Assembly (NCBI GenBank): GCA_021767685.1
Contig: JAASSV010000001.1
Coordinates: 1 to 33,006, forward strand
From: Caryophanales bacterium
GTDB lineage: Bacteria; Bacillota_I; Bacilli_A; Izemoplasmatales; Izemoplasmataceae
Direction: 5' to 3'
Length of the DNA: 33,006 nucleotides
Shown: positions 2 to 29,607 of the stretch, one piece after another
Layout: each line of letters begins with the position of its first letter
How positions within the stretch are numbered: the first letter of the stretch is position 1
Notes under the pieces: generated by a model
The model's input: only the letters and a program-made list of their open reading frames with translations
Databases searched by the model: none
What the model was told of the DNA's origin: nothing
Position numbers and translations under genes: made by a program

Positions 2-901
2 ACATTACGCTTCAATGACAATGGAGGATACTTTGATTTAGCGCCTGTAGATGGGGCGGAAGATTGTCGGCGTGATATTGTATTGGAACTTGAAAAAATA
101 GGATTCATTATGGAAGCTTCTCATCATGAAGTAGCGCCAGGACAACATGAAATTAACTTCGAATTTGAAAATGCATTACAAGCATCTGATTCCTTACAAC
201 TGTTTAAGCTTATTGTTAAAAATGTGGCAAAACGTCATGGATTACATGCAACATTTATGCCAAAACCAATCGCAAGTATTAACGGTTCAGGAATGCATAC
301 AAACTGTTCGCTATCTGATAAAGATGGAAATAATGCATTTTATGACAAAGATAAAGATTTGCAACTAAGTACAACGGCCAAACAATGGATTGCCGGAATT
401 ATTAAACATGCTCGTGGATTTACTGCATTAACCAACCCAACGGTAAACTCGTATAAACGCTTAGTCCCAGGATACGAAGCACCATGTTATATTTCCTGGA
501 GTGACGCGAATCGCAGTGCGATGATTCGTATCCCTGCTAAACGTGGAAAAGCGACGAGAACGGAAATTAGAAGTGTAGATCCGTCTGCAAATCCTTATTT
601 AGCTTTTAGTGTTATCTTAGCGAGTGGACTTGATGGAATTGAAAACAAGTTAGATGCCATTGATCCGGTTTATATCAATTTATATGAGTTAACTCGTAGT
701 GAGAGAGAAGAACAAGGAATTAAAAACTTACCTGAAAACTTAAAAGACGCCTTAAAAGCATTAAAAAATGATGATCTTATTCAAAAAGCTCTCGGTAAGC
801 ACGTTACTGATAGGTTTGTTTTCGAAAAACAACTAGAATGGGATGACTTTAGATTAAGTGTCACTGAATGGGAGATAAAAAAATACTTACGTGTTTTCTA
901 A
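2..901 (+). CDS. glnA: Glutamine synthetase type I, C-terminal part (5' end outside window)
   Basis: ATP-dependent ligation of ammonia to glutamate, the central nitrogen assimilation step; cytosolic dodecamer. The frame is open from base 2, so the gene starts upstream; 299 codons are visible, about the last two thirds of a usual 440-450 residue protein. Visible family motifs: [11 protein letters not shown] at the very start, the active-site stretch [13 protein letters not shown] (visible codons 40-52), the ATP-binding NGSGMHTN, and [20 protein letters not shown]. The protein ends in LRVF, typical of short Bacillota GSI. A Tyr lies in INLYELT where proteobacterial enzymes are adenylylated, but the surroundings are unlike that site, so regulation by adenylylation is not expected. 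An apparent start at 83 (TTG) is internal to conserved sequence and was rejected. No terminator follows; pfkB starts 47 bases on. Confidence 0.97.
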
Positions 902-7827: not shown

Positions 7828-7863
7828 AAATTTGTCATTTTTGTTTCATGATTTTTGCGCTTG

Positions 7864-7872
7864 TGCTATAAT
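7864..7872 (+). promoter_or_regulatory. Extended -10 promoter of cdaA
   Basis: TGCTATAAT, a perfect extended -10; weak -35 TTTCAT (7844-7849) at 17 bases. The start codon is 19 bases downstream, so the leader holds little beyond the ribosome binding site GGGAGTG. Confidence 0.75.
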
Positions 7873-7891
7873 AAATATGGGAGTGATAACG

Positions 7892-8629
7892 ATGAGTAAT
7901 TTTGACATTATAGCCATCAACATCTATTTAATAGTTCTTATTATAAATATACTAAAAAATAAGACGATTATTCAAGTATATCGCTTTTTTAAATTGATTA
8001 TTTTTGCAATGTTCATCTTTGCGATAGCAATTGCAATTGAAGATAACGTTTCCTACTTAAACTTACTGTTAAAGGGAATCCCACTATTGTTAGTTGTTGG
8101 CTTAGTGTTGGAACCGGAAGTCGCTGCTATATTTAAAAAATTAGGCATTTTCGGTCATGGTTTGTTTTCTGAAACCATTGAAGATGTAACCAAAAATGAA
8201 GTATTGAAAAGTATTGAATTTATGAGCCAACGCAATATAGGGGCATTAATAACCTTTGAAAAGAATGCTTCGTTGCAAGAGTTTGTACAGACGGCTTATC
8301 CCATTAAAACGACACTAAGTAACGAACTTCTGTCGACTATTTTTGTTCCCGAAACTCCATTGCATGATGGTGGTGTTATTATACGAGGTGATCAGATCAT
8401 ATGCGCTGGAGCTTACTATCCTCCAACAGATCGATTGGATATTCCGAAGCAATTAGGATCGCGCCATAGAGCGGCAATTGGTGTTAGTGAAATCAGTGAT
8501 GCACTCACAATAGTTGTTAGTGAGCAAACCGGAAATATAAGTGTTGCATTGGATGGATATTTGGACTTAGATGTTGATCATGAAACACTTGTTAATTATT
8601 TAGAAACACATTTACAAGGTAAATCATAG
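7892..8629 (+). CDS. cdaA: Membrane diadenylate cyclase (c-di-AMP synthase, CdaA family)
   Basis: Condenses two ATP into cyclic di-AMP, the messenger controlling potassium and osmolyte uptake and wall homeostasis. 245 residues. Three membrane helices (about 5-21, 33-49, 56-74) precede a cytosolic DAC domain. Catalytic motifs: PLHDGGVII with Asp159 and GSRHRAA with R191-H192-R193. The usual DGA and GTRHR read here as DGG and GSRHR; both changes are conservative and the core residues remain, so activity is likely. The usual neighbours, a YbbR-domain regulator (cdaR) and glmM, are absent. Start: ATG 7892 with GGGAGTG upstream; an in-frame TTG at 7832 and an ATG overlapping the ribosome binding site were rejected. 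Confidence 0.94.
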   Translation: MSNFDIIAINIYLIVLIINILKNKTIIQVYRFFKLIIFAMFIFAIAIAIEDNVSYLNLLLKGIPLLLVVGLVLEPEVAAIFKKLGIFGHGLFSETIEDVTKNEVLKSIEFMSQRNIGALITFEKNASLQEFVQTAYPIKTTLSNELLSTIFVPETPLHDGGVIIRGDQIICAGAYYPPTDRLDIPKQLGSRHRAAIGVSEISDALTIVVSEQTGNISVALDGYLDLDVDHETLVNYLETHLQGKS

Positions 8630-8657
8630 CGAAATGATGAGAATCATTCGCTTTTTT
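8629..8657 (+). terminator. Terminator of cdaA
   Basis: GCGAAATGAT (8629-8638), loop GAGA, ATCATTCGC (8643-8651) with one bulged A, then six Ts. The stem begins in the last base of the stop codon. Confidence 0.85.
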
Positions 8658-8690
8658 CTTTAAGAATGTATTAATAGTGTATAAAAACTA

Positions 8691-8699
8691 TGTTATAAT
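8691..8699 (+). promoter_or_regulatory. Extended -10 promoter of the flavoprotein/GGDEF-like unit
   Basis: TGTTATAAT, a perfect extended -10; the start codon follows after 29 bases. With the cdaA terminator just upstream, this makes the next two genes a separate transcript. Confidence 0.65.
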
Positions 8700-8728
8700 G
8701 AGTTAAGTATAAAAATAGGGTGATTGCT

Positions 8729-11062
8729 GTGGAAAAGTATGATGTAGTCATTATTGGTGGGGGACTTGGTAGTTTAACCACCGCAACGTATTTAACAAAG
8801 CGACTGAGAAATATCGCTGTTTTTGAACAGAACTCGAAACGTAAAATTGCAAGTTATACAAAGAACTTTCGCGATAAACATAGACATAAGTTTGAATTTA
8901 AATATTTCCACCAAGACTTGGGTGGTGTTCATAAAGGTGATTTGTTCTACGAATATTTAAAGAGATGTGGATTAGACAAGCGTTTTGAATATGTGGATAA
9001 TCGCCAAACAATGGTCGTAACTGAAGATAGAAGAATTGTCAAAAGACCAAATACATTTAAAGAATTAAAAATCTATTTAGTAAGACATTATCCAAAGCAA
9101 CGTGATAATACTTACCGATTATTTGATGATATTGAACGTCATTACAATGATTTTAGAAAACAGAAATTAGCTAGGTTATCAAACCAAGAGTATACGATTT
9201 CTTCGCTTATGATTGAGTGGGGTGATTTAAGCTTATTTGATGTTTTAAATCAATATTATAACGATGACAAAATAATGGAAGAGTTTCTCTATGTTCATAA
9301 TGCAATTGGATTAGACTTAACAGCTATTAATGCCTATAACTACTTTGTGAAATGGTTTGATACGTTTGTTGATGGAAACCATTTAATCGCTACTTCTTTT
9401 GATGAGATTGTAGAAGAGTTAACAAAAGAAATCTCTAAAAGCCGGCAAAAAATATTTACAAATCGAAAAATTGAACACGTTGTAATTAAAGATAATGAAA
9501 TCGATTATATCATTGATACAGAAGGTAATGAAATAGAAGCAAAACACTATGTGATTAACATGCGTACTGATGAGTTTGCTGATATGTATTTAGACTCTGA
9601 TGAAGAGATTAAATCTGATTTTTATGAGTTTTATCCGGATGCAAATAATGGGGTATATACAAATCGAGTGTATCTTGGGTTATCGGTACTGCCAGAAGAC
9701 ATTGGCATGAATCATTTACAATATTTCTTCAGTCATATTGAAGAAGATGATGTTAGATTTCTAAGTTTAACCAACTATAATAAACTTGATCCATCATGCT
9801 GTACAGGTAATCGTGGTGCGATAATGATTGAATATATCGACACAGGAAAATCAAAAAAGGACCAAATCAATCAAGTTGTAACGCAGTTCTTAAAATATTA
9901 TCCTAAAGCAAAAGACGCGATTTTATTAAAACGAATTGATGATAAAACACCATACTTTGGCAGTCAAGCTGAAGCATCTTTTTGGGAAGGGAAATCGCTT
10001 AATGACTTGTTTTTCATTGATGATTACTCTGCTTTAAACCCATTTGATAATAGTTATTTTATTGGGTACTGGACAAAACCAGAATCGGGGATCACAGGAA
10101 TTCTTCAAACAGGTGTAGAATACGGAGATATTATTGATGAAGATATTTATCATGGCGATGATGATGATTACTTTATCACCCATGATGAGCTAATGAACAT
10201 CATAACAAACCAGTTTATTCCCCATAGTTTAGGGAAAACCGAGAAGAATATTCAGTTCTTTATTGGTAAAGATTCGTATTTTGTTCGTACAAAAGGTAAA
10301 CATCAACGGTTATATAAAGGGACAAGTGAAATATCTGATATTATTATTGTCGCAACGAATGAATGCTTATATGACCTAAGTGTGGGAAATACCACTCTTG
10401 ATCAAGCAATCGATAACGGGACATTGGAGTATGTCGGTAATCGTGAGTTTCTAAACAATGTTATCGAAGCCTTTGATATGGGTATTGTTATTTCAAAACC
10501 TGATCGATATAAATTTGTACCAGGCAAATGGGGCTTAAAAATCATGTTGGCGCAATTATCTATTGTTTTCTTATCAAATTTATTAGGGAATTACCATTTG
10601 TACATTTATTTGGCTCCTCTTACACTTTTAGCCTTTGGGGCTACTGTATATTATAAATACAAATTACTTGGAAAAATAACGGTATTTGAGTATGTTGTAA
10701 TGACAATTTACTTATTGCTATCTGTTACAAGTGTGTTTGTGGAAGAAGTGAATAGCTTAAAAGATAGTACATATACTATGACTTTCTTTACTGTATATTT
10801 CATAGGGACATGGTTAATTAACCTTCCTATAGCGCTTGGTTATGTCCGACATGATTATCGCATCGATTATACAAGAACAAAGTTATTTATGAAAATGACT
10901 GGCGGCTTAACCTTTATATGGGGTGTGACTTTCTTTGTCATTCTTGTAGCTGATTTATTAATGGATCAAAGTTATGCAGCGCTATTCTACTACTTAGTTC
11001 CACTATCAGTATATCTATCATTTTACTACCCATCTAATTATATTCGTGGCTATTTCAATTAA
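8729..11062 (+). CDS. FAD-dependent oxidoreductase (CrtI/amine-oxidase-like) with SCP2-like and membrane domains
   Basis: No exact family recognised. 777 residues in three parts. (1) An N-terminal dinucleotide-binding fold with VVIIGGGLGSLTTATYL and an acidic end to the second strand (VFEQ), followed by a long region organised like phytoene desaturase/carotenoid isomerase-type flavoproteins; HQDLGGVHKG near residue 70 lies where those bind flavin or substrate. (2) About residues 485-585 resemble an SCP2 lipid-binding domain: VATNECLYDLSVGNTTLDQA then GTLEYVGNREFLNNVIEAF. (3) About 606-768, roughly six hydrophobic segments ending in YYPSNYIRGYFN. The inference is membrane-bound redox chemistry on a lipid, perhaps an isoprenoid. 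Start: GTG 8729 with AGGGTGAT upstream; a GTG at 8720 lies in that site. The next gene follows 15 bases on, probably co-transcribed. Confidence 0.72.
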   Translation: MEKYDVVIIGGGLGSLTTATYLTKRLRNIAVFEQNSKRKIASYTKNFRDKHRHKFEFKYFHQDLGGVHKGDLFYEYLKRCGLDKRFEYVDNRQTMVVTEDRRIVKRPNTFKELKIYLVRHYPKQRDNTYRLFDDIERHYNDFRKQKLARLSNQEYTISSLMIEWGDLSLFDVLNQYYNDDKIMEEFLYVHNAIGLDLTAINAYNYFVKWFDTFVDGNHLIATSFDEIVEELTKEISKSRQKIFTNRKIEHVVIKDNEIDYIIDTEGNEIEAKHYVINMRTDEFADMYLDSDEEIKSDFYEFYPDANNGVYTNRVYLGLSVLPEDIGMNHLQYFFSHIEEDDVRFLSLTNYNKLDPSCCTGNRGAIMIEYIDTGKSKKDQINQVVTQFLKYYPKAKDAILLKRIDDKTPYFGSQAEASFWEGKSLNDLFFIDDYSALNPFDNSYFIGYWTKPESGITGILQTGVEYGDIIDEDIYHGDDDDYFITHDELMNIITNQFIPHSLGKTEKNIQFFIGKDSYFVRTKGKHQRLYKGTSEISDIIIVATNECLYDLSVGNTTLDQAIDNGTLEYVGNREFLNNVIEAFDMGIVISKPDRYKFVPGKWGLKIMLAQLSIVFLSNLLGNYHLYIYLAPLTLLAFGATVYYKYKLLGKITVFEYVVMTIYLLLSVTSVFVEEVNSLKDSTYTMTFFTVYFIGTWLINLPIALGYVRHDYRIDYTRTKLFMKMTGGLTFIWGVTFFVILVADLLMDQSYAALFYYLVPLSVYLSFYYPSNYIRGYFN

Positions 11063-11077
11063 TATGGAGGGAACAAC

Positions 11078-12229
11078 ATGATTGACAATATTATTCTCGC
11101 TATTATCGTATTATGGTTTATCTATGCGATAGCTATTAAATTGACAAAAAAACGTAAACACGACTATAGCTTCTTTATAGCGTTTTTAGCCGCGCTCGGA
11201 TATGGATACTTCCAGTATTATGATACATATCCGGCCGTTTATAAAGAGATATACCAGTACAGTGTTATTGGAATATTTGCTTTGTGGATGATAATGGATA
11301 ATATTATTGTTTTATTTAAAAAGAATGTATCAGAGTTTGATTTTTATCATCTGGAGAAAGAGTTAGATGAGTTAAAACATAGTTCTGAGTTATTACGCTT
11401 ACGGTTTATTTCAACAATCGAGTTATTAAGCGATGGAATAGCATTTCGTGAGGATAAAGGAATCTTTGGTACTGATCAATATATTGAGTACTTAGGGTTA
11501 TCAGAGAACCAGTTTACAGTTGATACATTTGAAAATATCATGATAAAAGATGATTTAGTCCAATATAAGATGCTAATAGATAAATTATCTAAAAGAAATC
11601 CTGTTTATTCAATGAATTATCGTATTGAAAAAGATGGACAACAATTGTGGATAAAAGAAAAAGGAAAAGCTATTTTTATTGGTAAGAAAAAACATGTCAT
11701 TTCTATTATTAGACCGATGGATGTAAGACGCTTTCCAACAACCGAAGTTGATGTCTTAAATTCATTGCCAAAGTTTAAAGAAATGTACAATGAAATGCAG
11801 CGACTAACACGCAAAAAAAATCCTTACCATTTAGTTGTAATTCAATTAACAAATATTCCGAAAATAAATGAAAAATATGGTCGCGATTTTGGTGATTTAA
11901 TGATGGGAGAATATCTTTCAAAATTACGATTTAAATTTATAAAAGATAATCGAAGTTTATTTCGAATATCAGGTATCCAATTTGGGTTATTAATTAAAGA
12001 TCAGAAGAAGTTTGAATTACTTGATAGAGCACTTGTAGGTACCGGAGAATTATTAACAATGAGAATGAAATTTGGTGGTGTATCGCAAGTTATTTATCCA
12101 AACTTGGGAATATCAGAATCGCCTTATGAAGGTAAAAACCCTGATGATGTTTATAATGAGGCAATTACTGCACTCAAGCGAACAGAAAAAGAATCCTACC
12201 AAAAAAGTTTTGCTTTCTATGAAAAATAA
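11078..12229 (+). CDS. Membrane PAS and degenerate GGDEF-domain protein
   Basis: 383 residues. Three predicted membrane helices (about 3-21, 31-46, 60-83), a short helical coil (about 90-110), a PAS-like domain (about 112-210, with SDGIAFREDKG and KDGQQLWIKEKG), then a GGDEF-like fold (about 220-375). Where cyclases have the metal-binding motif, this protein has LTNIPKINEKYG, losing the first Asp. The signature GGDEF reads SGIQF near residues 298-302, so diguanylate cyclase activity is not expected. Membrane-PAS-degenerate GGDEF is also the N-terminal half of GdpP, the c-di-AMP phosphodiesterase, but the DHH/DHHA1 domains are absent. It may sense signals or bind a nucleotide for the flavoprotein upstream. 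Start: ATG 11078 with GGAGGG upstream. No clear terminator follows. Confidence 0.75.
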   Translation: MIDNIILAIIVLWFIYAIAIKLTKKRKHDYSFFIAFLAALGYGYFQYYDTYPAVYKEIYQYSVIGIFALWMIMDNIIVLFKKNVSEFDFYHLEKELDELKHSSELLRLRFISTIELLSDGIAFREDKGIFGTDQYIEYLGLSENQFTVDTFENIMIKDDLVQYKMLIDKLSKRNPVYSMNYRIEKDGQQLWIKEKGKAIFIGKKKHVISIIRPMDVRRFPTTEVDVLNSLPKFKEMYNEMQRLTRKKNPYHLVVIQLTNIPKINEKYGRDFGDLMMGEYLSKLRFKFIKDNRSLFRISGIQFGLLIKDQKKFELLDRALVGTGELLTMRMKFGGVSQVIYPNLGISESPYEGKNPDDVYNEAITALKRTEKESYQKSFAFYEK

Positions 12230-19865: not shown

Positions 19866-19886
19866 TGCCGATAGGTGGTGATTTGT

Positions 19887-21347
19887 TTGAGTATTCTTCA
19901 TATAGAGAACCTTCACAAGACGTATAAAAATGGGGGTACGAAAACACACGTTTTAAAGGGCATTAATTTAGATATCGACGAAGGTAGTTTTGTCTCGATC
20001 TTAGGGAGAAGTGGATCAGGTAAAACCACTCTTTTGAATGTCATAAGCACCTTATTAGAGTTTGATGAAGGATCCATCATAATTGATGGAGAAGATGTTA
20101 CAAAAGCAAAGAATAAAAAATTGAATAGTATTCGAAATAATTACGTTGGTTTTGTTTTTCAAGACTTTAACTTAGTCAATGAAATGAGCGTTTTGGATAA
20201 TGTAGCTACACCTCTCATATTAAATGGGGTGTCTTTTCGTAAAGCGCGGGAAAAGGCCACTGAAGCATTAGAAGATGTTGGTCTTGGACAATATACCAAA
20301 GTACGACCACCTGAGTTATCAGGGGGACAACAACAACGTGTTGCAATTGCTAGAGCAATAGTAAATGATCAAAAGATATTATTGTGTGATGAACCAACCG
20401 GGGCATTGGATGATTATACAGCAACAGAAATTCTAGACCTATTAAAGGTTTTATCTAAGACAAAAACCGTTATTATGGTAACCCATGATGAAGAGTTTGC
20501 AAAGAAGTATAGTGATCGTTTAATCATGTTAGTTGATGGAAAAATAGTTAAAGATGTAACAACTGAAAAAGGAATGTTGTTTGAAGCAGATATTGACGAT
20601 AATGACAAAACATTAAATATTAGATCAGCAGGATTTATTAACTTATTGATGTATTCTTTTTTAAGTATGGATATTGATAAAAAGAAATTCGGGAAAACGT
20701 TTAAAACATTTAGTTTATCATTAACGCTTTTTATTGTGATAAGTGTGATTAATGAGAACCTAGATGTTTTTACAGAACGTTATCTCGACTTTTTTGTTAC
20801 GCGAGAAGTAGCAGATACGAATGTTTTGCTAGATTTTATCTATCAATTCTTTGAACAAAATGTGACCGTACTTATTCAAACAATACTCTATGTACTGATT
20901 GGGTTCTGTGTTGTCTCATATCTCTTTGTATTCACCATAAATATTATTAATAAGAAACGGGAAATCGCTGTATTAAAAGCATTTGGAGCGTCGCAAGAAG
21001 CCATCGCTATCCTCTTTATGCTACGGCCAATCAAGTTCATTTTAGCAATATTTAAAGACACATTAATCTATACTGCAATACTTATGTTGTTGATTAATGG
21101 GGTCCTTAGTTTTAGAGCATTGTTCTATACGGAGTATTTAACATTTGTAACTAATATTTTTGTAGTAACATTTAATATGATCAAAGCGTTTGTTATAAAC
21201 TCATCTACCGCAATTGATTTTCCACTGTTAGTTGGCCATATCTATCCGATATTCTTAATTGTACTGGGACTATTTATGATTGGTAGTCTACTCCCTGCGT
21301 ATTACATTTCAAAAAGTGATACGATAAGGATGTTGGCAAGAGAATGA
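19887..21347 (+). CDS. ABC transporter, ATPase-FtsX permease fusion, minimal ectodomain (1st of 4)
   Basis: 486 residues. ATPase about 1-220: Walker A GRSGSGKTT (about 40-48), Q-loop FVFQDFN, signature LSGGQQQRVAIARA, Walker B ILLCDEPTGALD, switch VTHDEE; all intact and of the MacB/LolD type. The permease half has helix 1 (about 271-289), an outer loop of only about 37 residues, helix 2 (about 327-354), the FtsX cytoplasmic motif KKREIAVLKAFGASQEAI, helix 3 (about 389-409), a further hydrophobic loop, helix 4 (about 448-473), and the FtsX-style tail SDTIRMLARE. Start: TTG 19887 with AGGTGGTGA upstream; two GTGs further up overlap that site. ATGA overlap with the next gene. Substrate unknown. 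Confidence 0.9.
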   Translation: MSILHIENLHKTYKNGGTKTHVLKGINLDIDEGSFVSILGRSGSGKTTLLNVISTLLEFDEGSIIIDGEDVTKAKNKKLNSIRNNYVGFVFQDFNLVNEMSVLDNVATPLILNGVSFRKAREKATEALEDVGLGQYTKVRPPELSGGQQQRVAIARAIVNDQKILLCDEPTGALDDYTATEILDLLKVLSKTKTVIMVTHDEEFAKKYSDRLIMLVDGKIVKDVTTEKGMLFEADIDDNDKTLNIRSAGFINLLMYSFLSMDIDKKKFGKTFKTFSLSLTLFIVISVINENLDVFTERYLDFFVTREVADTNVLLDFIYQFFEQNVTVLIQTILYVLIGFCVVSYLFVFTINIINKKREIAVLKAFGASQEAIAILFMLRPIKFILAIFKDTLIYTAILMLLINGVLSFRALFYTEYLTFVTNIFVVTFNMIKAFVINSSTAIDFPLLVGHIYPIFLIVLGLFMIGSLLPAYYISKSDTIRMLARE

Positions 21348-24300
21348 TTGAGTTAAAGAATCTTACAAAAGTTTATGAAACAATAAACTATAATATTATC
21401 GCACTAAGCGATTTATCAATGACATTTGATATCGGAGAAGTCATTGTCCTCTTAGGGAAAAGTGGTAGTGGAAAAAGTACGTTACTCAATATTATTGGCG
21501 GATTTGATCGCGATTATGTCGGAGAGTGTCGAATTCAAGACACCGATTTAAAAAGTAAAACACAACGCGAAATTGACACAACAAGAAAACGAAACATTGG
21601 TTTCGTTTTTCAACAGTATATCCTACTCAACAACCTAACGGTGATTGAGAATGTTGAACTATCATTACGCGTTAGCGGTGTAGTGAACGCCGGAAGTCGC
21701 CGACGGGCGGCGAAACATGCATTAAAACTTGTTGGACTTGAAGATCATATGAATAAGTACCCTCATCAAATTTCAGGTGGACAAAAACAACGTGTTGCAA
21801 TAGCTAGAGCGTTTGTTAAAAACCCTGATGTTATCATTGCTGATGAACCAACGGCAGCGTTAGATAGCCGTACCTCAAAAGAAATATTAGACTTATTGGC
21901 AGATTTATGTCGAAATAAACTACTCATTATCGCAACCCATAATAAGTCTATCGTAAGAGATTATGCATCCCGTGTTATTGAGCTACGTAGTGGATATGTA
22001 GTTCGTGATCAATTAATCACAGATCCATCAAAAGTACGTGTTGATGAGCTTGATTTGGTCATTGATAAAGAAATTAAAGAAGATGAAGAGAAAATAAAAC
22101 AACTCATTGAAGTTGAGAAAGTTGTATCTGACGATAATAAATCAACTGTCTTAAAAGATATGGGAATCAATATTGAAAACTTCCGTTTAAATAATGATCA
22201 ACCATTTAGTATCGATGATGAGTTAAAAAAACGCCTTATTAAAGAGCGGATGCGCAATTCAAAGTTATCCACACGGATTTATCGATTTTTACAAACATCG
22301 GATAAGTTTTATGGTAAGAAAACCTATGCGAATAAATCCTTTTTCAGAAATATTGGCCTTCATTTATTTAGTGCTATTATTTTTGCTGTGTTTTTACTGA
22401 CGATAGTCTTTGGATTAAACTTTGTCTCAGAAACCTTTGGCGGGTTCAATGAGAAAGCGTTATATACAAGAAACATGAATAATGCGAACCACGTTTACTT
22501 TGCCCCTAGTGAGTTTACAATGGAAGACTATGAAACGACAATTTACGATTCGTTAGAACAATCGTTTATCAATGATTTTTCACAAACCGAGTTAACACGC
22601 AATGATTTTTATGAAATGCTTTTAACAGATCCGTATGTAGAATATCAGTATTATCAAGATAAACTAAGTTATCTTGATTCTGAATTATCTAGTAATGATG
22701 CGATTAACCTGTACTATAACAACTCAAGCATTATTATGCTTGAAGAGAATCCTAATATTATTTTTGAACCACTTCAATATGAATACCAAAATATCGTTAC
22801 TTTCCCTGAACCTTATGTCTATGTTACTGATTTTATGGATATAGCACTAGAGGAATCGAAATTATACCAATTTAATTTTCTTTATGCGGAGAACAATGAG
22901 GACATTTTAGAACAACATATCCTTGAAGGTGGAGAATTGCCAGACGAAGCCAATGAGATTGTCATTCCTGTCGCATATTTATTTCATTATGAAATACTAA
23001 ACCCGAGTGATTTTAAAGATAATTATGGTAATGATTTAAGAATGATTCCATCCGAACGCATCAAAGAAGCATTTGATGCATTAAACCCTTCGCGAAAAAC
23101 AATTGACATCACAAAAACCATAGTAACATTTGATGATACTACTGAAGGATATACGGAATCTTATGCAACTACAACACAGACATTTAATATTGTCGGATTA
23201 ATCAACTTTGATGGTGATATTAATCCGCAATTAGCCTTACGGGAAGATCTTTATATCCCAAATACGGCGTCACAACATTACAGTTTTATCGTCAGTAAGG
23301 CGTCAGAAGATGATGTTAACTTTGACATTATTGATAATGTCTCAGATAAAACATTTATGAAAAGTGTGCAATATGCAGAAATTAATAATGAAAATTACAT
23401 AGAGTACCAAGTCGCTGACTTAGAACAAACCTTTGAAGAAACGTATAAAAACACCCTATATAATAACTTTTCTGATCAATTCTCAATATGGGTTGAGGCA
23501 CTAAATAATGCGACAGGATTAGTGAGTGACTACGTGCAAGCTGATCTAGCAGGGGACAATCCAGATGATACCTTTATGGATAACGTCATTGATAATGCAT
23601 TATTCGAAGGACTCACTTATCGCGATCTTTTACGGTATTATATTGCGGATCATATGACAGTTATTAGTGATGAAAACGAGTTTAACTATCTATGTCCAAG
23701 CTGTGATTTTGATGATCGTAGTATTTCATCCTTATACAGTGTCGCCATGGATGCTTACCCAAGAATAAAACAAAGCAGCGAGTATGTGGATATGTTAGAG
23801 AACTATGGCGATGTCAGACGATTAACCTATCAAGAAAGCACAAACTATATCATGTATCAGGAATATGCGCATCGGTTTAATAACCACTTTTATGAAACAT
23901 CTCAAGGCAATACCTATGAGTTATCACTAGTGAGTGCATTTGAAGAAGAAAAAGGAAGTCTTACGTCATTAGTTTATGTTGTTTTGCCTAGAGTTTTAAT
24001 TGAGAACCTGCCATTTTTAGATACATTTGTATCCATGATTGAAAGAATGGAAGCCAATCAATCCTTCCAAAGTTTTATGCAACAAACGAATCTTGATTTA
24101 CTCATTAGTAGTATTGGGACAAATGCCATCAGAAGTGTGGTTATGATTATTCTATATATTGTAATTTACCTAGCATTAGCGCTTTCTGTTGTCTTTTTGA
24201 GTATTGTCCTGATTAATCTGTATGGCAATATCTATGAGACAGCAACACGGAAGCGGATACGTGAACTTGCGAGTTTACGCGTGCTGGGAACAAGCTATGA

Positions 24301-24619
24301 TGATATTCATGACATGGTTAAAATAGAAAACAAGCGTGTAGCGATATTTAGTTATATCTTATTTGCAGCGACATTACTAGGCTTAAGTCGTCTAGATTTA
24401 TTTGTGTCCGCGCCCGTACAACACTTTTATATGCCGTTATTTGGATTGTTCTTTGACTTTAATTTATATGATGTTTTTGTCATAAATCCAGTTGTCATTA
24501 TTTTTGCAACACTATTATTTTATTTCTTTGTTTATCGCTTTATTATTCGCAAAGTATCGACAAAGAAAATTAAGAATATTGACACTATTCGGGCAATTAG
24601 GGATGGTGAGAATGTATGA
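21344..24619 (+). CDS. ABC transporter, ATPase-FtsX permease fusion, large ectodomain (2nd of 4)
   Basis: 1091 residues. ATPase about 1-225 with GKSGSGKST, FVFQQYI, ISGGQKQRVAIARA (Ile for the usual Leu), VIIADEPTAALD and ATHN; functional in principle. A charged linker (about 225-330) rich in Lys, Glu and Asp follows. Helix 1 (about 336-363) leads into an extracytoplasmic domain of about 565 residues, far larger than in MacB, with no family recognised and only two cysteines, as CPSC near 784-787. Helices 2-4 follow from about 929, with the FtsX motif RKRIRELASLRVLGTSYDDI and tail DTIRAIRDG. ATGA overlaps at both ends. Confidence 0.9.
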   Translation: MIELKNLTKVYETINYNIIALSDLSMTFDIGEVIVLLGKSGSGKSTLLNIIGGFDRDYVGECRIQDTDLKSKTQREIDTTRKRNIGFVFQQYILLNNLTVIENVELSLRVSGVVNAGSRRRAAKHALKLVGLEDHMNKYPHQISGGQKQRVAIARAFVKNPDVIIADEPTAALDSRTSKEILDLLADLCRNKLLIIATHNKSIVRDYASRVIELRSGYVVRDQLITDPSKVRVDELDLVIDKEIKEDEEKIKQLIEVEKVVSDDNKSTVLKDMGINIENFRLNNDQPFSIDDELKKRLIKERMRNSKLSTRIYRFLQTSDKFYGKKTYANKSFFRNIGLHLFSAIIFAVFLLTIVFGLNFVSETFGGFNEKALYTRNMNNANHVYFAPSEFTMEDYETTIYDSLEQSFINDFSQTELTRNDFYEMLLTDPYVEYQYYQDKLSYLDSELSSNDAINLYYNNSSIIMLEENPNIIFEPLQYEYQNIVTFPEPYVYVTDFMDIALEESKLYQFNFLYAENNEDILEQHILEGGELPDEANEIVIPVAYLFHYEILNPSDFKDNYGNDLRMIPSERIKEAFDALNPSRKTIDITKTIVTFDDTTEGYTESYATTTQTFNIVGLINFDGDINPQLALREDLYIPNTASQHYSFIVSKASEDDVNFDIIDNVSDKTFMKSVQYAEINNENYIEYQVADLEQTFEETYKNTLYNNFSDQFSIWVEALNNATGLVSDYVQADLAGDNPDDTFMDNVIDNALFEGLTYRDLLRYYIADHMTVISDENEFNYLCPSCDFDDRSISSLYSVAMDAYPRIKQSSEYVDMLENYGDVRRLTYQESTNYIMYQEYAHRFNNHFYETSQGNTYELSLVSAFEEEKGSLTSLVYVVLPRVLIENLPFLDTFVSMIERMEANQSFQSFMQQTNLDLLISSIGTNAIRSVVMIILYIVIYLALALSVVFLSIVLINLYGNIYETATRKRIRELASLRVLGTSYDDIHDMVKIENKRVAIFSYILFAATLLGLSRLDLFVSAPVQHFYMPLFGLFFDFNLYDVFVINPVVIIFATLLFYFFVYRFIIRKVSTKKIKNIDTIRAIRDGENV

Positions 24620-26862
24620 TTGATATTCGTGACTTAGAGAAAATTTACCATACTAAAGAACGCGATTATGTAGCGCTTAAAGATGTGAACTTAACATTTG
24701 AACCAGGCGAATTTATCGCTGTTTTAGGTGAGAGTGGAAGCGGTAAAACAACATTCTTGAACATGATCAGTGGTGTCGATACAAAAACATCGGGCACCAT
24801 TTTGTTTAACGAAGAAAACACGGGTAAATGGAAAGATAAAAAATGGCGTGAAATCCGGAACACAGAAATAGGCTTCATTTTTCAACGATTTAATCTTATT
24901 GAACACTTAACCGTGATGGAAAATGTAACCTTGCCACTAATTCTAACAGGTAGTGATGATAAGGTGGCAATTGAGATTGCCCGCCGGTTACTTAAAGAAG
25001 TTGGCTTAGAAGGAACAGAAGATAAACTAGCAAGCGAGTTATCAGGTGGACAACGGCAACGTGTTGCCATCGCACGTACGATTATTATCAATCCTACAGT
25101 TATTTTAGCCGATGAACCAACGGGTGCACTTGATAGTACAACCGCAAAAGAGATCTTAGAATTATTACAACACTTTGCACCAGGGCGAATTATCATCATG
25201 GTAACGCATGATGAAGATTTGGCTTATGATAATGCAACACGTGTTGTCAGACTTCATGATGGAAAAGTTATTAGTGATGAGATTATTAAAGAAAAGAACG
25301 CAGATAAGCGACTTACCACCGATGACTTACTGTCATATAATACGAAAATCACACGACGTAAACGTCGTCATTTGGTTAAGCAATTTCCTGAGTTAGAAGG
25401 ACAATTAGAGTTAGGCGAAACAACAAAAATTCCGTTGCACCGTAAATATATTGCCAATAATCCTGTCTTTACTAGGATGATTGCACGTGAGAATTATCGT
25501 CAAAAACGTGCCATAAACCGGCGTATTTTATGGAGTTTTGTGATTGGGATTAGTTTGTTATTACTTGTGAACATCGTGATGAAAAACATCACAGCGTATA
25601 ATTTTCATTTATTTGATATCAATAATGACTATGAACAGTATTTAGTCACAGACATAGGGACTTACGATACAGAAACAACCACTGAAGATGAACACATTGC
25701 GAGTTTAATGGCATCACTAGAAACTGAAGAGAATGTGGATGATGTGTATCTGTACTATGAACACTATGTCCAAGAACTTTATTTAGCAACAACCAATAAT
25801 TTTTATTCATCAGATTCAGGAGAACGGACCATCAACGCCGGGGTATACAGCCCTCGGATTACGACACTTGGTCCTGACACCATTACCGAAGAAGACTTCT
25901 ATTTACGTGATCAGATCTTTATTGGGCGCTTTCCCAACCCTGACGCGACAACACCAGAAGTACTCATTAGTAGTGAATACCTCTTATCTCAGTTCTTAGG
26001 TATTAGTCTAAATGAAGCATTAAATGATGGGGCTAGTACAGATAATATACGCTTAGAAGCGTTTGTAGATAAAACACTATTCATATGTGGGGAAACGGTG
26101 AAACTAGGCGATACAGAGCCTAACTTAACCACCGTTGATGGCTCCTGTTTTGCGTATACGATATCGGGTATTTTAAATAGTTATTATCAAGGAATAAACT
26201 ATGTGGGTAATATTTATATGTTTAATGATGGGTTTGAGTTATACGTAGAATATTTGAAAGATGACAAAGGCTTTACTCGGGCAGATGAATATTATGATAA
26301 GTATATTGCATTAACACCTGATAATGTGAATGAGCCTTTATCGATCAGCGAACTAAATGCAACATACGATATCACAATCGAAAACCCTGAATACAGACAA
26401 TATCAAGAAACACGAGATCTAGAGTTAATGCTAGAATATATGTATTATGCAATCTTTGCCAGCCTATTTGTTATTAGTGGAACCGTCGCCGTTAATATTG
26501 TTATCTCTAGTATTCATGAACGGATTCGTGAGATTGGAATTTATTCAAGTATTGGAGTTAGTAAAAAAAGCATACGTAACATGTTTGTCTTTGAAACTGT
26601 TGAAACCGCATGGCGGATTCTTCTCATTACAGGGGCATTATATGGCATACTAGCACTTACATTCCAATATGCTTATCGTTTTGTTGTTGTAAATTTAACA
26701 AATTTAGAACCAATATTCGGATATAATCCAGTATTTAGTTATGAAACTACCTTTAGCATCACGGTAATTATCGGCGCTGTTATATTCTTATTTGTCAGTG
26801 TCTTATTACCGTCCTTTAAAGCTGCCAATATGCGGGCAATCGATGCCCTAAGAAGTGGGTGA
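24616..26862 (+). CDS. ABC transporter, ATPase-FtsX permease fusion (3rd of 4)
   Basis: 748 residues. ATPase with GESGSGKTT, FIFQRFN, LSGGQRQRVAIART, VILADEPTGALD and VTHDED. A basic linker (KITRRKRRH) precedes helix 1 (about 304-323). The extracytoplasmic domain is about 283 residues (325-607) with two cysteines near 490 and 510, 20 residues apart. Helix 2 (about 608-631) leads into the FtsX loop HERIREIGIYSSIGVSKKSI; two more helices and the tail MRAIDALRSG end the protein. The N-terminus KIYHTKERDYVALKDV and the FtsX loop resemble those of the next gene, so these two may be a more recent duplication. ATGA overlap upstream; 6-base gap downstream. Confidence 0.9.
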   Translation: MIDIRDLEKIYHTKERDYVALKDVNLTFEPGEFIAVLGESGSGKTTFLNMISGVDTKTSGTILFNEENTGKWKDKKWREIRNTEIGFIFQRFNLIEHLTVMENVTLPLILTGSDDKVAIEIARRLLKEVGLEGTEDKLASELSGGQRQRVAIARTIIINPTVILADEPTGALDSTTAKEILELLQHFAPGRIIIMVTHDEDLAYDNATRVVRLHDGKVISDEIIKEKNADKRLTTDDLLSYNTKITRRKRRHLVKQFPELEGQLELGETTKIPLHRKYIANNPVFTRMIARENYRQKRAINRRILWSFVIGISLLLLVNIVMKNITAYNFHLFDINNDYEQYLVTDIGTYDTETTTEDEHIASLMASLETEENVDDVYLYYEHYVQELYLATTNNFYSSDSGERTINAGVYSPRITTLGPDTITEEDFYLRDQIFIGRFPNPDATTPEVLISSEYLLSQFLGISLNEALNDGASTDNIRLEAFVDKTLFICGETVKLGDTEPNLTTVDGSCFAYTISGILNSYYQGINYVGNIYMFNDGFELYVEYLKDDKGFTRADEYYDKYIALTPDNVNEPLSISELNATYDITIENPEYRQYQETRDLELMLEYMYYAIFASLFVISGTVAVNIVISSIHERIREIGIYSSIGVSKKSIRNMFVFETVETAWRILLITGALYGILALTFQYAYRFVVVNLTNLEPIFGYNPVFSYETTFSITVIIGAVIFLFVSVLLPSFKAANMRAIDALRSG

Positions 26863-26868
26863 TGACCG

Positions 26869-29607
26869 ATGAGCCGAGGCGATATTATATTACGTTTGGT
26901 AGGCGTTAAACGCATCTACCATACCAAAGCAAACCGCGAGATTGTTGCGCTTAACGGCATAACAACGTCTTTTAAACGTGGCGAATTTGTCGGTGTTGTC
27001 GGTAAAAGTGGTAGTGGAAAAAGTACATTAATCAATATATTAGGGGGATTAGATACCCCGGATGCTGGAGATTATTTCTTAGAAGGAAATAACATCACCG
27101 CCATTAATGAAGGCCAGTGGGATGCGATTCGTAACGAAAAGATTGGATTCATTTTTCAAGAGTATCACTTATTAGAATACTTAAGTGTGTATAAAAACGT
27201 GGAAATTGCTTTAAAGTATCAAGAAGGCAATAGCCGTAAAGAAAAAGATGCCAAAGTAAAAGACATCTTAAATAAAGTTGGATTAAGTGATCATATTCAT
27301 AAGTTACCTAGTCAGTTATCGGGGGGACAACGCCAACGGGTTGCAATCGCAAGAGCGCTAGTTAAAGACCCTGCGATTATTTTAGCTGATGAACCAACAG
27401 GGGCGCTTGATTATAATACAAGCCAAACCATTATTGAGTTAATCAAAGGATTGAGTAAAGAACGGTTAGTAATAGTTGTGACACATGACCGCGGGATTGC
27501 GAATGAACATGCGACACGCATTATTGAGTTGTCAGAAGGGGTATTCACTAATGATTTAATTAAAGAAGATATCCCGCAAACCTATCAAAATACCTATCGT
27601 AAGACAGATCCAACAGATTTATCGATAAGAGATAAGTTTGAATTAACCTTTCAAAAGATTAGTTCCCGTTTCTTTAGAACGCTATTTACAGCCCTTTCCC
27701 TTGCGTTAGCATTTAGTTTTACCATTGTATTTAATGGGATTGAGCGCGGGGTTACAGAAGCGTATGATGCCTATTATGAAGCCCTTAATAAAGCAAATAG
27801 TTATGCGTTTAGTCTTGTGCCAGAAGAACCGGTTATTGATGACGCAGATTATTTTACTGCGCAAGAAGATTTGATCCAAACATACGAAAGTTATTTTGAA
27901 GATAAAAACAGTGAACTTGTCAGTAGTTATTCTACTGATGTGATGATCTCGCCAATCACGAGTGGAGTTGAGCGTGTTGTCGATAATCCATCATCCCCAG
28001 ACTTGTTAAATGATCATAAGTTACGGTTGTTCCATAGTGATCGTATCGCTGATTATAGTTATGATGATTTATTCATCGGGGATAGCCAGTATCCTGATCC
28101 AAACGTTAATGAGATTATGGTGACAAGTCGATTTTATCGAGATGTCATGCAGTTATCAGACAATATTGTTAACTTAAATAATTATGTCAATGAAGAAATA
28201 GACATCCCGATTTATAGTTTTACCATTGAAGAAGGAATCTTTGGTGTGTCAGAGTATTTGGACACACTTGCTGAAAATGAAAACCAAGAAATTGTACTTG
28301 GTGATGACACAGATGAGACCTTAGTACCAATACGGTATTTACCAATTAATTTACCGATGTATTGTTATAATTATGATAATCTTAATAATTATTACCAAGA
28401 TAAGTGTGAAGCGCGAATCAGAGACCAAAGAATCACCGAATACTTTGATTCTGTTGATGACTTTATTGCGTATATTGATGATTTTAGAACACAAGTAAAT
28501 ACGATTGATCCAAATTACTTTGATATCTTATTAAGAAGTAACGCCGTCTATTATTTAGTTGATGAGCGAGATGCCTTTTTAGACCCAGGAGAACCACGAT
28601 ACATAGAACGGGTTTATCAGACAGTGTATGACGAAACTACCGCCGTATTTCCTCAAGTTGAGATACGCGATGCGGTATTTAAAAGTCAGACAGATACCGT
28701 ATCTATGGTAGTTACCGCAATTATTGATAACGAGAACGAATCGGTTGTCTATATTGATAAAGATACTTATGAAAATACATTATTCCAAAAACAGGCGTTA
28801 CTTGACTATGTTGATGGGTATTTTAGTGTCAACTTAGATAGCGGTATTTTAGAAAGTGGACTTTTAGAAGATGTGAATGAAGAAGATATCTTAGAAATTG
28901 TGACGATTGAGAATTTCCATGATCCGATTAATGACTTTGCCCAAGAAGGTGGCAATAACTATGCCGCAACGTTTAACATCATTCGTAAAGAGCCGATTGA
29001 ACAAGGGGACGAATGTGCTATTTATACAGTTGATAATGTCTTAACACAGAGTAATATTGAGTTATCTCCAATTGTTGATGATGTATTTACAGTCACAGAT
29101 TACTCTAATTGTAAAGTAAATAGTGAAGCCTACCATTACTTAAATAGTGTTCGTACACTATTTGGGGTCTTCTTTAATACGTTACTGGTTATTAGTATTG
29201 TATTCTTTAATATTTTACTTAAAGTAATTCTTGGTGAGCGAATTAAAGAAATTGGTATTTACCGAAGTGTTGGTTCAACCGCAAAAGATATTAAAATGCT
29301 CTTCTTTATTGAAATTGTCACAGAAGTCTTAATGGCAATTATTATGAGTGTTGTCATGATTTATTATGCTAATCAGTTAATTAATGCGGTGTTCTTAGAT
29401 GTTATTAATCAAGGAACAGGTGTCATTAGTTTTGCAGGAATGAAGTTAAGTATTGGAAATAACCGGATGTTAACGGATATTTCATTCTTTAATCTACTCT
29501 TTTATAGTTTCATTGTATTTGCTTTATTAGGCTTTTTAAGTTATCGTAATGTCACAAAACTAGCCAAAACAAAACCAATAGATATTATTCGGGAGGTGTC
29601 ATCATGA
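26869..29607 (+). CDS. ABC transporter, ATPase-FtsX permease fusion, large ectodomain (4th of 4)
   Basis: 912 residues. ATPase with GKSGSGKST, FIFQEYH, LSGGQRQRVAIARA, IILADEPTGALD and VTHDRG. Helix 1 (about 267-290, FRTLFTALSLALAFSFTIVF) leads to an extracytoplasmic domain of about 470 residues (291-763), acidic and Tyr/Asn/Asp-rich, with four cysteines in two close pairs (about 498/512 and 714/747). Helix 2 (about 764-787) runs into the FtsX loop GERIKEIGIYRSVGSTAKDI; two more helices and the tail PIDIIREVSS follow. Start: ATG 26869, 6 bases after the previous stop. Its TGA overlaps the ATG of the lipoprotein gene (ATGA). Confidence 0.9.
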   Translation: MSRGDIILRLVGVKRIYHTKANREIVALNGITTSFKRGEFVGVVGKSGSGKSTLINILGGLDTPDAGDYFLEGNNITAINEGQWDAIRNEKIGFIFQEYHLLEYLSVYKNVEIALKYQEGNSRKEKDAKVKDILNKVGLSDHIHKLPSQLSGGQRQRVAIARALVKDPAIILADEPTGALDYNTSQTIIELIKGLSKERLVIVVTHDRGIANEHATRIIELSEGVFTNDLIKEDIPQTYQNTYRKTDPTDLSIRDKFELTFQKISSRFFRTLFTALSLALAFSFTIVFNGIERGVTEAYDAYYEALNKANSYAFSLVPEEPVIDDADYFTAQEDLIQTYESYFEDKNSELVSSYSTDVMISPITSGVERVVDNPSSPDLLNDHKLRLFHSDRIADYSYDDLFIGDSQYPDPNVNEIMVTSRFYRDVMQLSDNIVNLNNYVNEEIDIPIYSFTIEEGIFGVSEYLDTLAENENQEIVLGDDTDETLVPIRYLPINLPMYCYNYDNLNNYYQDKCEARIRDQRITEYFDSVDDFIAYIDDFRTQVNTIDPNYFDILLRSNAVYYLVDERDAFLDPGEPRYIERVYQTVYDETTAVFPQVEIRDAVFKSQTDTVSMVVTAIIDNENESVVYIDKDTYENTLFQKQALLDYVDGYFSVNLDSGILESGLLEDVNEEDILEIVTIENFHDPINDFAQEGGNNYAATFNIIRKEPIEQGDECAIYTVDNVLTQSNIELSPIVDDVFTVTDYSNCKVNSEAYHYLNSVRTLFGVFFNTLLVISIVFFNILLKVILGERIKEIGIYRSVGSTAKDIKMLFFIEIVTEVLMAIIMSVVMIYYANQLINAVFLDVINQGTGVISFAGMKLSIGNNRMLTDISFFNLLFYSFIVFALLGFLSYRNVTKLAKTKPIDIIREVSS

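Follow-up and report, generated by a model that had tools for sequence, protein, structure and literature searches.

In a 33,006-nucleotide stretch of an Izemoplasmatales draft genome (hereafter the window), we found a gene whose product joins three parts in one chain: residues ~4-480 have a CrtI/RetSat-type flavoenzyme fold, residues 485-590 form an SCP2-like domain, and residues ~604-770 a membrane domain of six helices. The architecture is real, unusual and so far found in a single order, the Izemoplasmatales, in which 61 of 90 genomes encode it; its chemistry and role are putative. Our leading, if tentative, explanation is a protein anchored in the membrane that handles or senses lipid, descended from a CrtI/RetSat-type flavoenzyme and possibly tied to c-di-AMP signalling.

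The mechanism we propose would work as follows: The cytosolic SCP2-like domain would pick up a membrane lipid and hand it to, or share it with, the cap pocket of the flavoenzyme fold, and the six-helix domain would keep both of these domains at the membrane. Lipid binding would be the function retained throughout the family, with redox chemistry not obligatory, and in the clade of the window protein a bound nucleotide cofactor, probably FAD, may add redox sensing or chemistry. Together with a PAS/GGDEF-like partner encoded downstream, the protein would most likely report the state of the membrane to the neighbouring c-di-AMP system.

Features of the three-part gene and its surroundings in the window (positions of the whole stretch)
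Feature	Position	Residues	Strand	Basis or detail
cdaA, membrane-bound diadenylate cyclase (DAC domain)	7832..8629		+	PF02457, E 1e-37
Intrinsic terminator after cdaA	8629..8657		+	stem 8629-8651, one bulge; T run 8652-8657
Promoter of three-part gene	8671..8699		+	TTAATA-17-TATAAT, TG before -10
Three-part protein gene	8729..11062		+	777 aa from GTG 8729; 780 aa if GTG 8720
CrtI/RetSat-type flavoenzyme fold	8729..10162	4-481	+	hhalign to CrtI-type paralogues; NAD_binding_8, 3.2e-6
Dinucleotide-binding loop GGGLGS	8756..8773	13-18 (8720 numbering)	+	intact in window protein
Cap (substrate) subdomain	9062..9364	115-215	+	15/21 invariant residues of the fold
C-terminal flavin-fold motif GYWTKPESGITGILQTG	10058..10135	447-472	+	E455 invariant in 26/26 aligned members
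SCP2-like domain, predicted to bind lipid	10172..10489	485-590	+	Pfam and PDB profile matches
Six-helix membrane domain	10529..11026	604-769	+	hydropathy, loop charge, low-confidence model
Protein with N-terminal hydrophobic stretch, PAS and degenerate GGDEF-like domains	11078..12229		+	PF00990, 6.5e-10; PF08447, 1.6e-6

Architecture and distribution of the three-part protein

The gene occupies a single uninterrupted frame (8720/8729-11062). Its likely start is GTG 8729, because GTG 8720 is itself part of the ribosome-binding site (AGGGTGAT, 8717-8724) and relatives have a methionine at the position aligned with GTG 8729; the start chosen in the first-pass annotation of this DNA is thereby backed. 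An alignment of 26 relatives, with identities of 26-86%, revealed conservation over the full length and in all three parts, which excludes a chance or chimeric reading frame. The earlier view of the chain as a flavoprotein followed by SCP2-like and membrane parts is confirmed by profile matches and by this conservation, and no curated family was found to span the whole chain, a match that the annotation had named as counter-evidence. In Pfam, a short NAD_binding_8 segment (3.2e-6) was the sole match above the cut-off for the window protein alone, and no NCBIfam model came near its cut-off, the best matches lying far below. AlphaFold modelling of the full-length chain from two input sequences gave low confidence (pLDDT 34). 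A literature search returned nothing useful on this architecture.

The SCP2-type pattern, which had been proposed for residues ~485-585, proved to be real. PF14864 (Alkyl_sulf_C, SCP2-like) matches 23 of the 26 members (best E 2.6e-7) and PF02036 (SCP2) matches four, and PDB profiles of PSdsA (4nur, E 3.9e-4) and of the SCP2-like 2 proteins 2nbm, 3bdq and 2qzt (E 1.4e-3 to 2.1e-3) match in register with TTLxxVLxSGxLKYKGD. Relatives were needed for a convincing call, since the window protein alone reaches E 0.073 against SCP2-like profiles. A low-confidence AlphaFold model of the domain from two sequences (pLDDT 46, best Foldseek E 1.1) has a secondary-structure order that is roughly compatible with this fold. 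SCP2 relatives are rare in the class (3/198 genomes), and no further fusion of SCP2 and flavoenzyme was detected among 392 genomes of the phylum.

In the membrane domain, hydropathy indicates five to six segments within residues 604-757, and the low-confidence model has six C-terminal helices that reach residue 769. The charge pattern places the basic loops inside, and both large domains are accordingly predicted on the cytosolic side. The domain belongs to no curated family. Its combination of six helices with a lipid-carrier domain, together with a weak likeness to the VC0807 membrane family in three of the 26 members (best 5.4e-8), could be read as a lipid transporter or scramblase, in which the membrane domain moves lipid across the leaflets and the SCP2 domain receives it. 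We consider this very unlikely, as the flavoenzyme fold would be left unexplained and a profile-profile comparison (hhalign) with stand-alone VC0807-like proteins fails, with probabilities of only 5.8 and 8. An assignment of the membrane domain as VC0807-like is doubtful, its weak profile match not being reproduced by the profile comparison.

Outside the order, sampling 395 genomes of the class yielded no full-length relative, and searches with the membrane and SCP2 domains yielded none among 295 and 392 genomes of the phylum. Viral contigs held no relative, and plasmids yielded only weak matches, to FAD oxidoreductases. The draft genome from which the window derives comprises 1.22 Mb and is 72% complete; among named relatives, a Candidatus Izimaplasma MAG is the closest, with a copy of 83% identity. 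Two cultured carriers, X. coldseepsis zrk13 and H. nucleasis zrk29, very likely exist, with the dinucleotide motif intact in the zrk13 copy and broken in the zrk29 copy (rows L009 and L033). Cultured Izemoplasmatales have no cell wall (PMC8397711, PMC10470597), and the carriers of the gene are marine bacteria akin to these wall-less strains.

Flavin-site decay and conservation of the cap

We identified the first domain as a carotenoid-type flavoenzyme fold from its end-to-end alignment with CrtI-type paralogues over 452 columns (hhalign probability 99.8, E 5.3e-30; the comparison set consists of paralogues of the same group and one 485-aa protein from another family of the class) and from recurring weak NCBIfam matches, which include carotenoid isomerase, CrtO, CrtD and CrtI. 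Canonical paralogues (n=4) keep the GxGxxG motif, the ribose glutamate, a GG pair ~6 residues further on, a middle GG and the C-terminal motif. Of these elements, the window protein retains GGGLGS, E36 and the C-terminal motif, but it has lost both GG pairs, as has every other family member.

The remaining part of the site has been lost unevenly. GxGxxG and the ribose acid are intact in the window clade (19 members), and among the 50 family members compared the dinucleotide motif is also intact in two divergent rows, which are without the glutamate. It is broken in all 22 members of the sister family, mostly to GxD.., and in most divergent members. On a tree built without the dinucleotide-motif columns, the intact or broken label requires four changes, with a root made uncertain by long branches.

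Conservation differs between the two groups as well. In the window clade, conservation is highest in the Rossmann (0.87) and C-terminal flavin (0.86) segments, which speaks for a functional cofactor there; this clade probably still binds a nucleotide cofactor, FAD being the probable one. Sister-family members are conserved best in the cap and the SCP2 domain, and they keep the membrane domain too. The cap (residues 115-215) holds 15 of the 21 positions that are invariant in the fold (hypergeometric p 5e-7). The loss of the motif and the conservation of cap and SCP2 domain make ligand binding a more likely family-wide property than flavin chemistry.

The same data bear on an active FAD enzyme of the CrtI/RetSat type, which would desaturate, saturate or isomerise an isoprenoid or acyl lipid of the membrane that its SCP2 domain delivers to the active site. 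The signalling neighbours would then be bystanders, and the sister family would have lost activity or would use another cofactor mode. The match to the fold over its full length, the GGGLGS-type motif with ribose acid in the 19 window-clade members, the strong conservation of their Rossmann and C-terminal segments and a transcription start apart from that of cdaA would all fit such an enzyme. H. nucleasis zrk29, a very likely carrier from the sister family, raises its unsaturated acyl chains under pressure (PMC10470597), although its copy is without the motif. We regard an active enzyme as doubtful, since both glycine pairs are lost even in the window protein and the sister family gave up the dinucleotide motif yet kept cap, SCP2 and membrane domains. 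In view of the losses in the flavin site, lipid oxidation or desaturation in cis, the interpretation originally attached to this architecture, is no more than a possibility, while the architecture itself stands.

A conserved three-gene cluster was observed elsewhere in the genome itself (L114 1519-4495, contig C154) and also in L110 and L111. It encodes a small NTF2-like protein and an SDR-type dehydrogenase, both named by eye, and a canonical CrtI-type flavoprotein with all flavin motifs. The cluster resembles an isoprenoid or lipid pathway and offers a good positive control.

The cdaA neighbourhood and the PAS/GGDEF-like partner

The three-part gene lies immediately 3' of cdaA (DAC match) and on the same strand in 59 of the 61 carriers; in the remaining two, cdaA and the gene are on separate contigs, at contig ends where checked. 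A terminator follows cdaA at 23 of 25 loci (2.0 expected), and TATAAT, mostly preceded by TG, is found upstream of the three-part gene at 22 of 25 (4.7 expected). Owing to this conserved terminator and promoter, the gene and cdaA are probably separate transcripts, and a simple cdaA operon was rejected, as both elements intervene in most relatives. The three-part gene probably opens its own transcription unit, with the PAS/GGDEF-like gene behind it. The proposed link to c-di-AMP therefore draws on conserved adjacency and a shared partner, not on co-transcription with cdaA.

The partner gene starts 15 bases downstream of the three-part gene and is likely co-transcribed with it. It is the next gene in all aligned loci, and a similar-sized reading frame stands downstream wherever a full-length locus extends far enough for one to be seen. 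Where the three-part gene is absent, cdaA is followed directly by the PAS/GGDEF-like gene in seven of eight inspected loci, with a gap of ~20-26 bases where reading frames are cleanly readable; the eighth stops at a contig edge. The GG[DE]EF signature is replaced in 17 of 17 PAS/GGDEF-like proteins, and this degeneration led us to reject an active diguanylate cyclase.

The usual gene order in Firmicutes is cdaA-cdaR-glmM (PMC8573169). With its position directly after cdaA, in the place of cdaR, the three-part gene could encode a CdaA regulator that replaces CdaR and, through contact with CdaA in the membrane, adjusts the activity of the cyclase. YbbR/CdaR (PF07949) was detected in none of the 90 genomes of the order, the window genome included, by a search that was positive in B. 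subtilis and L. lactis, and a family of seven genomes without a DAC match is also without a full-length three-part gene, both of which would suit this role. We nevertheless hold a replacement of CdaR to be quite improbable, given the separate transcript, the 17 genomes that keep cdaA without the three-part gene, the missing sequence likeness to YbbR and the extra gene that intervenes at some loci (gap up to ~1 kb).

Several further observations concern these loci. At one of them (G011, L008 588-1412), cdaA and the three-part gene have between them a gene classed by eye as nucleotidyltransferase-like, and similar gaps occur in several other genomes. The window genome has a GdpP-type phosphodiesterase domain, as do most of the 90 genomes. 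In family f2 (G037, G039, G041, G045, G049), the GdpP-type GGDEF domain was found and the DAC domain was not; this may be a phosphodiesterase with no cyclase to be detected beside it, or one that has diverged or is unrelated. The DGA motif of cdaA (8363-8374) has the form HDGG in two lineages, one of them the window genus, and HDGA elsewhere. Further downstream (19875-29607), the window encodes four ABC-transporter ATPase proteins in a row, the last two with FtsX-like permease domains. The literature searched gave nothing useful on c-di-AMP in Izimaplasma.

Our preferred reading as a lipid-handling or lipid-sensing protein has to be weighed against the Rossmann and C-terminal conservation in the window clade, the terminator and promoter, and the cdaA-bearing genomes that do without the gene. 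Its most specific version, a carotenoid-type flavoenzyme turned lipid sensor, which gained an SCP2 domain and an anchor, saw its flavin site disappear in several lineages and reports lipid state to c-di-AMP signalling in wall-less bacteria that lack CdaR, is unlikely. The peptidoglycan steps with which the usual partners of CdaA are connected have been lost in wall-less bacteria. A conserved, probably lipid-binding neighbour of cdaA is thus a testable candidate for linking c-di-AMP to the cell surface, and two cultured strains apparently carry the gene. If true, the family would clearly exemplify a flavoenzyme fold retained for ligand binding after flavin-site decay, and an SCP2 domain acting in cis with a fold of this kind.

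Comparison with known systems

With CrtI, CrtO, carotenoid isomerase and RetSat-type enzymes, the three-part family shares a fold that can be aligned over ~450 columns and the C-terminal motif, and the window protein also GxGxxG and the ribose glutamate. Unlike these enzymes, the family is without the two flavin-site glycine pairs, is fused to SCP2-like and membrane domains, and shows a conservation that centres on the cap. Its middle domain agrees in sequence pattern and register, over ~75 residues, with SCP2 proteins and with the C-terminal domain of SdsA-type alkylsulfatases. In those proteins the domain is free or stands behind a lactamase-type domain, whereas here it is placed between the flavoenzyme fold and the membrane domain.

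Two functional parallels can be drawn. Some of the enzymes beside UbiJ in the ubiquinone complex are flavin hydroxylases. UbiJ likewise brings an SCP2 domain next to enzymes for a membrane isoprenoid lipid (PMC9499169), but as a separate protein, while the SCP2 domain of the three-part protein is provided in cis and is membrane-anchored. CdaR (YbbR), the regulator of CdaA, is similarly a membrane protein encoded directly after cdaA (PMC8573169); the three-part protein differs from it by having no YbbR domain and by belonging to a separate transcription unit.
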